From an uncultured Pelagibacteraceae bacterium (GTDB lineage: Bacteria > Pseudomonadota > Alphaproteobacteria > Pelagibacterales > Pelagibacteraceae), in assembly GCA_902560075.1 (NCBI GenBank), contig CACEKE010000006.1:1-64000 (forward strand): a stretch of 64,000 nucleotides of DNA, written 5' to 3'. The translations under genes were made by a program, and so were the position numbers. Of the stretch, positions 40,040 through 58,938 are shown one piece after another; position 1 is the first letter of the stretch, and every line of letters begins with the position of its first letter. The notes under the pieces are model-generated. The model had not been told where the DNA came from. It saw only the letters and a list, made by a program, of their open reading frames with translations, and ran no database searches.

Positions 40040-41110
40040 GCTTTTATTGATAAATCTTTGCCTCAAGTCATCAATTAAAATTGTATTTTTACCATCTTGA
40101 TAGTGCCAATAAGTCCAACCATTATAACTTTCGGTACCCATTATTTGTGCAGCGATTTTATGTATAGAACCTTCTGCATGTTTATATTTTATACTACCGT
40201 CGACCATAATTTTAGCACTAACTTTCTTCTTTTGATCAAAAAGCATCGAACCAGGTTTTAAGATTCCCATCTCTACCAAAGATCCAAATGCAATTCTTGG
40301 CTTTGATTTATTGTTTTCAATTGTATCTAAACTTTCATCATCAATTTTCCTAGTTTTGCTAATTCTCTCTTGCGCCGCTAAAAAATAATTCTTATCTTTC
40401 TCAATACCAAAAAATTCTCTACCTAATTTTTTTGCTACTACAGCAGTAGTTCCAGTTCCTAAAAACGGATCAAAGATTGAATGACCTTTATTTGTTGTAG
40501 CTAGTATTATTCGATGAAGTAACGATTCGGGTTTTTGTGTAGAATGAACTTTTTTTCCATTTTTTTTTAATCTTTCCTTGCCGCTACAAATAGGTAAAAG
40601 CCAATCAGATCTCATTTGTAAATCATCATTTAAACACTTTAATGATTGGTAATTAAAAGTATATTTAGATTTCTTATTTTTTGAAGCCCAAATTAAAGTT
40701 TCGTGAGCATTAGTAAAACGAGTCCCTCTAAAATTAGGCATTGGATTTCTTTTTCGCCAAATTACATCGTTTAATATCCAGTAATCTAAATTTTGCATAT
40801 GATAACCTAATCTAAATATGTTATGATATGAACCAATTACCCAAATACTTCCATTATCCTTCAAAACTCTCTTACATTCTTTTAACCATAAATTTGAAAA
40901 TTCATCATAACTTTTAAAGTCTTTAAACTTGTCCCACTCATCATTTACGCTATCAACCTTTGAATTGTCTGGCCTTTTTAACATTTCACCAAGCTGCATA
41001 TTGTATGGTGGGTCAGCAAATATTAAATCAAAACTTTTTTCTGGAATTTTTTTTAATTCATCAATACAATTTCCATTTACGATTTTATTATTGTAATTTA
41101 AATGTTTCAT
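40019..41110 (-). CDS. ccrM: Cell-cycle DNA adenine methyltransferase, GANTC-specific
   Basis: Orphan methyltransferase that methylates adenine in GANTC, an essential cell-cycle regulator in several alphaproteobacteria. The catalytic motif DPPYNM occurs early (about residue 33) and the SAM motif DPFLGTGTT late (about 207), the beta-class order. The C-terminal part (from about 270: RIAFGSLVEMGILKPG, YNGWTYWHYQDG) is the extra domain characteristic of CcrM. It has 363 residues. No restriction partner is next to it; rnhB lies upstream, as in many alphaproteobacteria. Confidence 0.95.
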   Translation of the reverse strand: MKHLNYNNKIVNGNCIDELKKIPEKSFDLIFADPPYNMQLGEMLKRPDNSKVDSVNDEWDKFKDFKSYDEFSNLWLKECKRVLKDNGSIWVIGSYHNIFRLGYHMQNLDYWILNDVIWRKRNPMPNFRGTRFTNAHETLIWASKNKKSKYTFNYQSLKCLNDDLQMRSDWLLPICSGKERLKKNGKKVHSTQKPESLLHRIILATTNKGHSIFDPFLGTGTTAVVAKKLGREFFGIEKDKNYFLAAQERISKTRKIDDESLDTIENNKSKPRIAFGSLVEMGILKPGSMLFDQKKKVSAKIMVDGSIKYKHAEGSIHKIAAQIMGTESYNGWTYWHYQDGKNTILIDDLRQRFINKSLSINLA

Positions 41111-41123
41111 TTCTATAAAGTTT

Positions 41124-41152
41124 AGTAGACTCTAGCTTAGAGTCTCAGTCAA
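41124..41152 (-). promoter_or_regulatory. ccrM: Candidate ccrM promoter containing GANTC
   Basis: On the minus strand TTGACT (5 of 6 for -35) is followed after 17 bases by TCTACT (4 of 6 for -10), and the ccrM ATG begins 14 bases downstream of the -10. The spacer holds two GANTC sites within a palindrome. In Caulobacter, ccrM transcription responds to methylation of GANTC sites in its promoter, so similar feedback is plausible here. Confidence 0.5.
41127..41145. repeat. Palindrome with paired GANTC sites
   Basis: AGACTCTA and TAGAGTCT form a perfect 8-base inverted repeat with a GCT centre. Each arm holds one GANTC site: GACTC at 41128-41132 and GAGTC at 41140-41144. It sits between rnhB and ccrM, 17 bases before the ccrM ATG. 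No T-run follows on either strand, so a terminator is unlikely. Confidence 0.75.
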
Positions 41153-41191
41153 CTTCAGATTGAAATTTTAATAAATAATTTGTGTTAGAGG

Positions 41192-41764
41192 TTATTTTTT
41201 AATCAATATATTGTGTATAGGCTTAAATTTTTTACGATGATACTCGGTAACCCCAAGTTTTTTAATAGCTAATATGTGTTTTTTAGTTCCATATCCATAA
41301 TTTTTATCCCAAAAATATCCTGAAAACTTTTTTGATAAATTTTTAATAACTTTGTCACGAGAAACCTTAGCGATTATTGAGGCAGCCGATATTTCTGCAA
41401 TTTTTTGATCTCCTTTGACAATGTATCTTAAATTATAATAAGGCATATGGGGAGTTTTGTTTCCATCAATAAGGGTTAAATTTGGTTTTTTCTTTAATTT
41501 TCTAATTGCTCTTTTCATTGCTAACAGTGTTGCATTTAATATGTTGAGTCTTTCAATTTCTTTGACTGAAGCTGAACCTACCGACCAAATAGAATTTTTT
41601 TTAATATATTTATCTAAAACTTCTCTTTTTTGTTTTGAAATTTTCTTGGAATCTTTTAATGATTTTTTATTTATGTTTTTTTTTAATATTACAGCTGCAG
41701 CGTAAACTGGGCCAATAAGACTGCCTCTGCCAGCTTCGTCAACTCCTGCAATTATTTTTTTCAT
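41192..41764 (-). CDS. rnhB: Ribonuclease HII
   Basis: Removes ribonucleotides embedded in DNA and RNA primers. The catalytic residues are visible in GVDEAGRGSLIGPVYAAA (Asp and Glu), TLIDGNKTP (Asp) and IIAKVSRDK. It has 190 residues. It overlaps the uracil-DNA glycosylase gene by one base upstream; ccrM follows after 81 bases. With rnhA this gives the cell both RNase H classes within 16 kb. Confidence 0.96.
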   Translation of the reverse strand: MKKIIAGVDEAGRGSLIGPVYAAAVILKKNINKKSLKDSKKISKQKREVLDKYIKKNSIWSVGSASVKEIERLNILNATLLAMKRAIRKLKKKPNLTLIDGNKTPHMPYYNLRYIVKGDQKIAEISAASIIAKVSRDKVIKNLSKKFSGYFWDKNYGYGTKKHILAIKKLGVTEYHRKKFKPIHNILIKK

Positions 41765-42453
41765 TAGATTTTTATATTTGATCTATCGATTTCTTTTTTT
41801 ATCTCTTTTAGATCTATCCAAGAAAATTTTTTCTGATCAGGTTGTCTTAATAAGTATGCGGGGTGAAATGATACGATAGTTTTATATACTTTGTTTTTAA
41901 TTATTACTTCTTTCCAAGTACCTCTTTCTTTCGTTATCTTAAGTTTATATCCTAGCAAAGCTTCCATTGCTGTACTACCTAACAAGATTAAAATTGTTGG
42001 ATTGATTATTAATATATGTTCACGAAGGAATTCTGAGTATCTTGCCACTTCTTTTGGCTCTGGTTTTCTGTTATTCGGTGGCCTGTAATTAACGACATTT
42101 GTTATGTAAACTTGTTCTCTTTTAATATTTATGGCCATAAGCATTTTATTTAAAAGGATACCTGCCTCTCCAACAAAAGGTTTACCCTGTTCGTCCTCCT
42201 TTTGACCAGGTCCTTCACCGATAATCATTATTTTACTATCTTGTTTACCGTCACTAAATACAATTTTTTTAGCATTTTTTTTTAGTTCACAATTTTCAAT
42301 ATTTTGTATTTTTTTCTCTAAATCTACCAAAAGTTGAGTTTTATTTTCCTGTTCGTCTATCTTTTGGACTCTAATTATAGGTTTATTTGCAAATACATAA
42401 TCTATCTCCATCTCATCAAATATGTCATTTTGATTTTTATCATTAATAATCAT
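41764..42453 (-). CDS. Uracil-DNA glycosylase, family 4-like, lacking most cluster cysteines
   Basis: DNA repair glycosylase of 229 residues that removes uracil. Motifs are clear: IIGEGPGQKEDEQGKPFVG, NVVNYRPPNNRKPEP and a C-terminal SFHPAYLLRQ. Classic family 4 enzymes hold a [4Fe-4S] cluster with four cysteines; this protein has a single Cys (NCELKKN), and the sites near RPPNNR and in the following helix read Tyr. Some other alphaproteobacterial members also lack these cysteines. It starts ten bases from the divergent TPR gene. Confidence 0.88.
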   Translation of the reverse strand: MIINDKNQNDIFDEMEIDYVFANKPIIRVQKIDEQENKTQLLVDLEKKIQNIENCELKKNAKKIVFSDGKQDSKIMIIGEGPGQKEDEQGKPFVGEAGILLNKMLMAINIKREQVYITNVVNYRPPNNRKPEPKEVARYSEFLREHILIINPTILILLGSTAMEALLGYKLKITKERGTWKEVIIKNKVYKTIVSFHPAYLLRQPDQKKFSWIDLKEIKKEIDRSNIKI

Positions 42454-56989: not shown

Positions 56990-58280
56990 CTCTTAAACCG
57001 CCTAATATAGATTTGCTCAACTCAATTTTTCCTCCATGTGATCTAATTATGTCAGAGGATATAGATAACCCTAATCCAACGCTACTTTTAGTGTCTTGTC
57101 TACTTTTATCTATTTTGTAAAAAGGTTTAAAAACATTTTCATATTCAGATTCCGGAATACCTGGACCATTATCATCTATTATAACCTTAAAATTTTTTCT
57201 CAAAATTTCAATTTTTACGGCTAATTTGCTACCGTATTTTAATGAGTTTTCTATTAAATTATTAAAACATCTTTTTAAAAGTTCTTTTCTTCCTTCAAAC
57301 TCTATATTTTCAGGACTCTCAAGTGTAATATCTGGATTATCATATTTGTCTAAAAGAGATGAGATTAAGACTTGAAAATTAAATTTCTGTGTTTTTTCTT
57401 CTGCTCCAGTTTTAGCAAATTGAAGATATTCATTTAGCATTTTTTCCATCTCATCAACATCATCAGATAATTCTGATGCTATTTTTCTGTCCTTAATTAA
57501 CGCGAGCTGTAATTTAATTCTAGTTAGTGGTGTTCTAAGGTCATGACTTATTCCAGACAACATTTCAGATCTCTGTGTTAAATGTCTGATAATCCTTTTT
57601 CTCATTTTTTCAAATTCAAAACCAGCTTTTCTAATTTCTAGAGCACCAGATGGTACAAATTCCTCAATTTTTTCACCCCTTCCAAATTTTTCTGAAGCCT
57701 CTGCTAATTTTAAAATAGGTCTTGTTTGATTTTTCAAAAAAATCATTGCTATAGAAATAACAAGTAAAGCAGGTACTGTTATCCATAAGGCAAAAATTCG
57801 AGCGGACGAGCTAGTTAATCTTTCTCTAGGAATGAAAAATTCAAAAAAACCATTTTCATATGAAATTTTAATATTAACTAATTGTTTATATGAAGTTGTA
57901 TCAAACCAGTAATTTAAATTTCTAGATTTTAATTCACGTCTTAAAGTTCTATCAATAGGACTGAACCATCTTTTGTCGTTATGTATTGGTAATTTTAAAT
58001 TTTCTTTATATTTAATATTTATATCTAAATTTTCTTTATAAAGAACAATTATAAAATCTTTGTCAGTTTTTTCATTATCATAGGCGTCTATGAAAGTTTT
58101 AAGCTCAGAGGCTAGTGCTCGTGTCATACCTTTATTGGTCTTAATCCATAAACTATCAAAAAAAACAAGTGTAATTGTTACTTGTAAAATAATTATAGGT
58201 ATAGCGACAATTAAAAGTCCACGGTAAAATAATTGCTTAGGTAAAATTTTTTTTAATGATTTAATCAATCCATAAAACAT
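56967..58280 (-). CDS. envZ: Sensor histidine kinase, EnvZ-like
   Basis: Membrane kinase of 437 residues. Helix one (about 18-40) and helix two (about 165-187) enclose a periplasmic domain of about 120 residues, then a HAMP linker. The phosphoacceptor is His in LSGISHDLRTPLTRI (about residue 245). The ATPase region has NLIENSLKYGSK (N box), DDNGPGIPE (G1) and GLGLSISS (G2). The architecture and its regulator match EnvZ. It overlaps the regulator gene by 20 bases. Confidence 0.88.
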   Translation of the reverse strand: MFYGLIKSLKKILPKQLFYRGLLIVAIPIIILQVTITLVFFDSLWIKTNKGMTRALASELKTFIDAYDNEKTDKDFIIVLYKENLDINIKYKENLKLPIHNDKRWFSPIDRTLRRELKSRNLNYWFDTTSYKQLVNIKISYENGFFEFFIPRERLTSSSARIFALWITVPALLVISIAMIFLKNQTRPILKLAEASEKFGRGEKIEEFVPSGALEIRKAGFEFEKMRKRIIRHLTQRSEMLSGISHDLRTPLTRIKLQLALIKDRKIASELSDDVDEMEKMLNEYLQFAKTGAEEKTQKFNFQVLISSLLDKYDNPDITLESPENIEFEGRKELLKRCFNNLIENSLKYGSKLAVKIEILRKNFKVIIDDNGPGIPESEYENVFKPFYKIDKSRQDTKSSVGLGLSISSDIIRSHGGKIELSKSILGGLRVIVSLPS

Positions 58281-58938
58281 AACCTTTACCTCTTATAGTT
58301 TGTAAATATTTTGGGTTTTTAGGATCATCTTCAATTTTTTTTCTCAATCTTGTTATAATAACATCAACAGATCTTTCTTTGTCTATTTTAATTAGATTAC
58401 CTATCAACTCTCTTGATAATGTCTTACCTGGTGAATTTATCATTTTTTCGAGGATTATTTTTTCTGTATTATTTATCTTATGTTGTTTATTATTTTTAAA
58501 TATAAAAAGCTTATTTAAATCAATTTTAATATTTTCAAACTCTGCCAAATGTTTAGGTTTTTTAGTCTTTGTCCTATTTAATATACTTTTTATTCTTAGT
58601 ATCAGCTCCTTCGGCTCAAACGGTTTGGGAAGATAATCGTCTGCACCACTTTCAAATCCTCTAATTCTATCATCAGACTCTCCTCTTGCGGTCAAAAGTA
58701 TAACAGGTGTATCAATACTTTTTTTATTTTCTAATAAAAACTCCAAACCGCTTTTTCCTGACATCATAACGTCGAGTACAATTAGGTCGAATTCAATAAT
58801 CTTTATTTTGCTTTGAGCTTCCTCTGCACTTTGCGCAGTTGTTACCAAGTAATTATTTTCGTTTAAAAACTGTTTAACAAGTTTTCTTATACCATCATCG
58901 TCATCTACAACTAAAATATGAGCTAAGAAATTATTCAT
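58261..58938 (-). CDS. ompR: OmpR-family response regulator
   Basis: A 225-residue regulator. The receiver domain has VVDDDDGIRK, phosphoacceptor Asp in LIVLDVMMSG (about residue 56) and LLTARGESDDR, with Lys in YLPKPFEPKEL. The winged-helix domain ends DVIITRLRKKIEDDP and IRGKGYVLW. Together with the MarR gene it also resembles PetP-PetR of Rhodobacter, a pair tied to bc1 expression; targets here are unknown. It overlaps MarR by eight bases. Confidence 0.88.
   Translation of the reverse strand: MNNFLAHILVVDDDDGIRKLVKQFLNENNYLVTTAQSAEEAQSKIKIIEFDLIVLDVMMSGKSGLEFLLENKKSIDTPVILLTARGESDDRIRGFESGADDYLPKPFEPKELILRIKSILNRTKTKKPKHLAEFENIKIDLNKLFIFKNNKQHKINNTEKIILEKMINSPGKTLSRELIGNLIKIDKERSVDVIITRLRKKIEDDPKNPKYLQTIRGKGYVLWID

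Follow-up and report, generated by a model that had tools for sequence, protein, structure and literature searches.

Does the promoter of a DNA methyltransferase gene sense the mark that its own product makes? This question is raised by a 64,000-nucleotide stretch from an uncultured Pelagibacteraceae bacterium (assembly GCA_902560075.1, contig CACEKE010000006.1, positions 1 to 64,000; hereafter the window), in which two GANTC sites lie in the putative promoter of ccrM, the gene for the GANTC adenine methyltransferase. The initial annotation of the locus had described a −35-like TTGACT and a −10-like TCTACT with 17-base spacing 5′ of ccrM, together with two GANTC sites within a perfect 8-base inverted repeat. 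Our analysis showed that the letters, positions and spacing are all correct, and it confirmed the repeat (Table 1). The annotation had read these elements as a promoter under methylation-dependent autoregulation. Of this reading, a functional ccrM promoter carrying methylation sites is supported by sequence comparison, because the offsets of the GANTC sites from TTGAC are fixed and the distance from TTGAC to ATG is fixed in SAR11; autoregulation through the methylation state is plausible, with precedent in print. The emphasis on the palindrome did not hold.

The gene ccrM was found in 268 of the 297 genomes of the order. We read the stretch 5′ of it in 222 genomes including that of the window, 139 from the order and 83 from other Alphaproteobacteria. 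The order stretches are a subset of the 268 ccrM genomes and mostly the top-scoring matches, and those of the window's genus (g1) are mainly the best-scoring among the matches listed. A TTGAC at most 200 bases 5′ of ccrM was present in every one of the 139 order stretches and in 66 of the 83 from outside the order. Behind it, a GANTC pair at +7 to +10 and +19 or +20 was identified in 51 of 57 stretches of g1 and in 27 of 32 stretches of the second family of the order (f2). Among the further genera, labelled g2 to g7, the pair was found in 24 of 28 stretches of g5, with the second site at +24 to +26, that is, with a wider spacing. Taken singly, the upstream site (offset 7–10) occurs in 52 of 57 g1 stretches, and the downstream site (offset 19 or 20) in 56 of 57 g1 and 32 of 32 f2 stretches. 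Other Alphaproteobacteria carry a pair 5′ of ccrM in 33 of 82 cases, one 48-base stretch (L208) being excluded from this count, which is why it stands at 82 and not 83.

The expectation for such a pair was 0.0 from 100 dinucleotide shuffles per stretch, and in the longer loci the 473 remaining TTGACs were never followed by one. Among named genomes, counted in the best 80 of at least 590 relatives, the pair was found in 40 of 53 Pelagibacteraceae and in 10 of 27 others, for example Sphingopyxis, Croceicoccus, Limimaricola and Vannielia. In these counts the TTGAC used for one record (L319) was not the right one, and the record was scored as pair-less even though it visibly contains a correctly shaped pair; another (L337), counted among the non-Pelagibacteraceae, has a promoter resembling that of the SAR11 genus g3. 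That a fixed GANTC arrangement is kept in many relatives suggests that CcrM marks help to control CcrM production.

The letters around the downstream site were also compared. The −10-like hexamer reads TCTAAT in 49 of the 51 g1 members carrying the pair, and the downstream site is followed by T, A, any base and T in all 51. This site lies one base further along in g1 than in other Alphaproteobacteria, and the exact −10 assignment in g1 is less clear. All 29 other Alphaproteobacteria with the downstream site at +19 have A directly after it and T as the fifth base. With 17-base spacing, this A and T are the second and sixth positions of a −10 element, which makes the last C of the site its position 1. 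The first in-frame ATG follows TTGAC at 41–43 bases in 50 of 51 g1 members, at 35–36 in 24 of 24 for g5 and at 35–36 in 25 of 26 for f2. Because the start would then fall at the ATG or a few bases before it, the SAR11 ccrM transcript is likely to carry a very short leader or none at all.

The arrangement is largely found at ccrM within the order. The pattern TTGAC-N2..5-GANTC-N3..12-GANTC had one match in the whole assembly of the window, at ccrM, and its reversed control had 0. A search of 148 order genomes gave 150 pattern matches in 124 genomes, and 55 for the reversed control. In the 108 order genomes with a listed ccrM place, 90 of 114 matches were at ccrM and 24 elsewhere, and ccrM was without the pattern in 18; this tally leaves out 31 genomes (36 pattern matches) whose ccrM position was unlisted. 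Across the class, a tighter pattern with 4–6 bases between the sites, outside which the window promoter falls with its seven, gave 77 matches in 115 genomes, 30 of them at ccrM and 47 elsewhere, and 15 for the reversed control.

Eight of the 47 non-ccrM matches were examined, seven chosen for similar letters and one for contrast. In the seven look-alike loci (L343–L349, Alphaproteobacteria), TTGAC and GANTC sites at +10 and +21 stand directly 5′ of FtsB/DivIC-type open reading frames, six of which scored above the Pfam DivIC cut-off while the seventh was similar by eye. No FtsB-type frame lies behind the pattern in the contrast locus. Since it also precedes FtsB-type frames, outside SAR11 the architecture is shared by genes other than ccrM. 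No paper treating GANTC, ftsB and CcrM together was found in the literature searched. Tentatively, TTGAC with two spacer GANTC sites might be an old alphaproteobacterial promoter code of CcrM/GcrA cell-cycle genes, serving ccrM and, in several lineages, ftsB/DivIC; CtrA-less SAR11 would have pared it down to about ccrM alone, so that GcrA and CcrM would form a minimal loop that times itself and has a near-leaderless transcript. We consider this possible rather than probable.

For the window itself we propose that the element is a methylation-sensing ccrM core promoter, probably read by GcrA with sigma70, and we give this reading a probability of about 0.55. CcrM would methylate both promoter GANTC sites, and replication would turn both hemimethylated. 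GcrA, a sigma70 cofactor, would then read the methylation state and alter ccrM output, so that CcrM synthesis would be coupled to the passage of the replication fork. In SAR11 such a loop would operate without CtrA. The methylated state could be ON, like that of Caulobacter ftsZ and mipZ, which are reported to be activated by methylation (PMC3708114), or OFF, like that of Caulobacter ccrM, for which activation only from hemimethylated DNA has been described (PMC2217572). GANTC was reported to be fully methylated at 99.86% of its occurrences in a cultured Pelagibacter, and an origin-to-terminus gradient of GANTC methylation was described; the ccrM promoter is not mentioned in the passages of this methylome study that were available (PMC9516812).

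Reading by GcrA and sigma70 is favoured because the genome has gcrA, a search for ctrA found none, the action of GcrA is published, and CcrM has already been proposed as a GcrA target. The gene gcrA was identified in 54 of 58 order genomes, that of the window included. The GcrA of the window's genome scored 119.2 bits with the Pfam GcrA model (cut-off 26.9) and 98.1 bits with the NCBIfam GcrA model, under its cut-off of 280, and its first 49 residues align with the first residues of the solved GcrA chain 7ye1_G. GcrA has been reported to bring RNA polymerase to methylated promoters, to bind sigma region 2 and to stimulate open-complex formation (PMC7403470). From 13 alphaproteobacteria, P. ubique among them, Adhikari et al. 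(2021) proposed that CcrM belongs to the core of genes regulated by GcrA (PMC7987155).

As to CtrA, an 81-base gap (41111–41191) separates the ccrM start at 41110 from the rnhB stop at 41192, and no exact CtrA box of the consensus TTAA-N7-TTAA (PMC4287350) was found in it, the search covering full boxes. Four OmpR-type DNA-binding-domain genes were found in the assembly, and none reached the CtrA model cut-off of 350 bits: one scored 128 bits, two remained below 137 and 95 bits, and one had no match, the assembly being 90% complete and the model named for Rhodobacter-type CtrA. An OmpR-type response regulator at 58261–58938, followed by a sensor kinase open reading frame, is the one with 128 of the 350 bits; CtrA ranks within its 25 best-matching families. 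Previous studies have reported ctrA to be absent in Pelagibacter (PMC2877005; PMC7987155). Of the features of a Caulobacter-type ccrM promoter, GANTC at the promoter was thus found, and a CtrA box and a ctrA gene were not.

Several results weigh against the proposed GcrA-read promoter. In g2 no GANTC was found in the ccrM spacer (0 of 8). Genera g3 (3/3) and g6 (6/6) have the first site only, g7 (1/1) has the second site only, and none of the four g4 stretches has the pair, two carrying the second site and two neither. The pair was not found in 49 of the 82 other Alphaproteobacteria, and the 33 that bear it have a TTGAC-to-ATG distance of 35–37 in 14 cases only. The window's TCTACT is a weak −10 hexamer in which position 2 is not the A of the consensus; a consensus promoter scan did not list the ccrM promoter because the scanner demands this A. 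The extended GcrA motif YGAKTCK (PMC7987155) does not fit the two sites, AGACTCT and AGAGTCT, which on neither strand begin with Y. The same study reports very few P. ubique orthologs with a high probability of GcrA regulation, and its section 11 gives no value for P. ubique ccrM. In Caulobacter, GANTC was reported at most 50 bases upstream at only 31% of GcrA-enriched cell-cycle starts (PMC4287350). Finally, in ten order genomes TTGAC followed by a single GANTC showed no enrichment (90 matches vs 186 for the reversed pattern), so a wider GcrA regulon of single-site shape was not seen, and a SAR11 regulon of single-site promoters was rejected as a candidate.

The strongest competing explanation is that methylation acts as a direct off-switch without GcrA: full methylation at the spacer and the border of the −10 element would lower sigma70 promoter activity, and ccrM would fire only when hemimethylated and so silence itself. 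The downstream site touches the −10 region, as such a switch would have it. We nevertheless regard this as rather unlikely, given that methylation activates ftsZ and mipZ (PMC3708114), that Caulobacter ccrM is driven by CtrA, whose gene is reported absent in Pelagibacter, and that gcrA is kept in 54 of 58 order genomes.

The inverted repeat was examined separately from the GANTC pair. It had been placed exactly between the two hexamers, which is wrong, as it shares 3 bases with TCTACT and the downstream GANTC shares 2. The description of the two sites as facing each other is trivial: any two GANTC sites do so because GANTC is its own reverse complement, and symmetry is added by the middle base and the flanks only. 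Arms of at least 8 bases occur in 17 of 135 complete pairs (g1 8/51, g5 8/24, f2 0/27, other Alphaproteobacteria 1/33). Symmetry of the middle base in g1 (22 of 51) equals the 22.0 expected from column composition. With long arms this rare and g1 symmetry at the expected level, the palindrome was rejected as a conserved feature; in relatives, what is kept upstream of ccrM is the GANTC pair, and the extended palindrome largely is not. An exception is g5, with arms of at least 7 bases in 24 of 24 complete pairs, drawn from 6 distinct sequences only.

These counts also bear on whether the repeat is the operator of a dimeric repressor, with GANTC incidental. A perfect 8-base dyad between promoter elements has the usual operator layout, and the long g5 arms would suit one. 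Such an operator is improbable, however, since 29 of the 51 g1 pairs lack middle-base symmetry and keep both GANTC sites (e.g. GAATC-TTTTTG-GAGTC), g1 symmetry is what independent columns would give, and the g5 sequences are so few.

GANTC had been called common, and the window holds 72 against a shuffle mean of 164. The motif is thus more than twofold depleted across positions 1–64000, as if a methylation target were avoided. The symmetric pairing had also been considered less expected at this spot. A GANTC pair by itself is no surprise, because 2 pairs at most 17 bases apart were observed in the window against 1.4 expected; its place and its conservation are what stand out. No other GANTC pair in the window is as closely spaced as that in the ccrM promoter. 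Of the window's 10 perfect inverted repeats with 8-base arms and a 3-base loop, only the one at the ccrM promoter carries GANTC within the arms. For the 19-base motif with up to 3 mismatches, 0.18 matches are expected per window and at least one was seen in 17 of 100 shuffles; the sole match found is exact.

Shared ancestry alone would make the sites unselected letters of an old promoter. Many of the genomes are close relatives, the 51 pairs of g1 reducing to 16 distinct site-to-site sequences and the 27 of f2 to 5. The letters between the sites nevertheless vary while GANTC stays, the 33 other Alphaproteobacteria have 33 distinct sequences, and GANTC is depleted in the DNA of the window, so that we hold this explanation to be very improbable. 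Least credible is a function of the repeat at the RNA level, either terminating rnhB or forming a hairpin in the ccrM leader: the 81-base gap folds as an 8-pair hairpin (z −2.1), as one GACTC..GAGTC congener (z −2.6) and one f2 stretch (z −1.9) also tend to fold, but two GAATC..GAGTC congeners gave z −0.3 and 0.0, a terminator scan of 40900–41900 found none and the repeat sits upstream of the likely start, and with symmetric forms folding, other forms not, and the scan empty, this candidate was rejected.

In Caulobacter, ccrM likewise has a pair of GANTC sites at its promoter, located in the leader rather than in the spacer. The window promoter resembles that of Caulobacter crescentus in the control of ccrM by methylation state proposed there (PMC2217572, PMC3973325), and differs in that CtrA activates in Caulobacter whereas the window gap is without an exact CtrA box. 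With the methylation-responsive GcrA-sigma70 promoters of Caulobacter (ftsZ, mipZ, ctrA P1) it shares GANTC near the core (PMC3708114, PMC4287350), and gcrA is present in the window's genome; unlike them, it has two spacer sites with flanks off YGAKTCK, and its reading by GcrA is predicted. A GANTC between −10 and −35 is reported to mark a cluster of timed promoters in Caulobacter (PMC4287350).

Earlier comparative work has come close to this locus. Adhikari et al. (2021) found GANTC-type motifs 5′ of ccrM across alphaproteobacterial orders, without taking the position of the sites into account (PMC7987155), whereas here the geometry was counted in 222 stretches. Brilli et al. (2010) counted CcrM sites 5′ of alphaproteobacterial cell-cycle genes in 500-base windows; they drew no conclusion of control from the counts and described no geometry (PMC2877005). 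Control of ccrM both by methylation (PMC3973325) and by GcrA (PMC7987155) has already been proposed in print. No description of a fixed TTGAC/GANTC/GANTC geometry or of a SAR11 ccrM promoter was found in the literature searched, most subscription papers lying outside it, and within that literature a fixed promoter geometry of this kind, in SAR11 without CtrA, seems to be new.

Few marine cells are as abundant as SAR11 bacteria, which keep both ccrM and gcrA. If the SAR11 ccrM promoter senses its own methylation, the loop would be among the simplest epigenetic loops of a bacterial cell cycle. Nature provides a control without sites in the g2 genomes (L091–L098), against which the methylation hypothesis can be set: instead of the GAGTC that relatives have at offset 20, seven of them read TAGTC and one TAGTT.

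Table 1. Positions of ccrM, rnhB and the promoter elements in the window.
Feature	Coordinates	Strand	Remarks
ccrM, GANTC adenine methyltransferase, 363 aa	40019..41110	-	N6_N4_Mtase + RAMA domains
rnhB (ribonuclease HII)	41192..41764	-	5′ of ccrM, same strand; domain and family matches
−35-like hexamer TTGACT, ccrM promoter	41147..41152	-	sequence
Upstream GANTC	41140..41144	.	offset 8 from first T of TTGAC
Downstream GANTC	41128..41132	.	offset 20; shares 2 bases with −10-like hexamer
Perfect inverted repeat	41127..41145	.	8-base arms 41127-41134 and 41138-41145, 3-base loop
−10-like hexamer TCTACT, assignment tentative	41124..41129	-	17-base spacing to TTGACT

The product of the window's ccrM was assigned to the CcrM class, having an N6_N4_Mtase domain with a C-terminal RAMA-type domain and aligning colinearly with the solved CcrM chain 6pbd_A (residues 8–351, E 4.8e-136); with the NCBIfam CcrM model it scored 572.9 bits, under the cut-off of 830. 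It was the single match at E 0.001 in the assembly (1.18 Mb, 90% complete), and its nearest relatives in named genomes, judged by CcrM, belong to the Pelagibacteraceae (SAR11). Among the matches listed, which reach down to 1.1e-178, the window CcrM showed 76–80% to other genera of the family against at most 75% to members of its own genus. Despite this similarity pattern, its promoter has the geometry of its own genus. That geometry is also present in two named Pelagibacteraceae records (L263 and L267), whose CcrM values were 77% and 80%.
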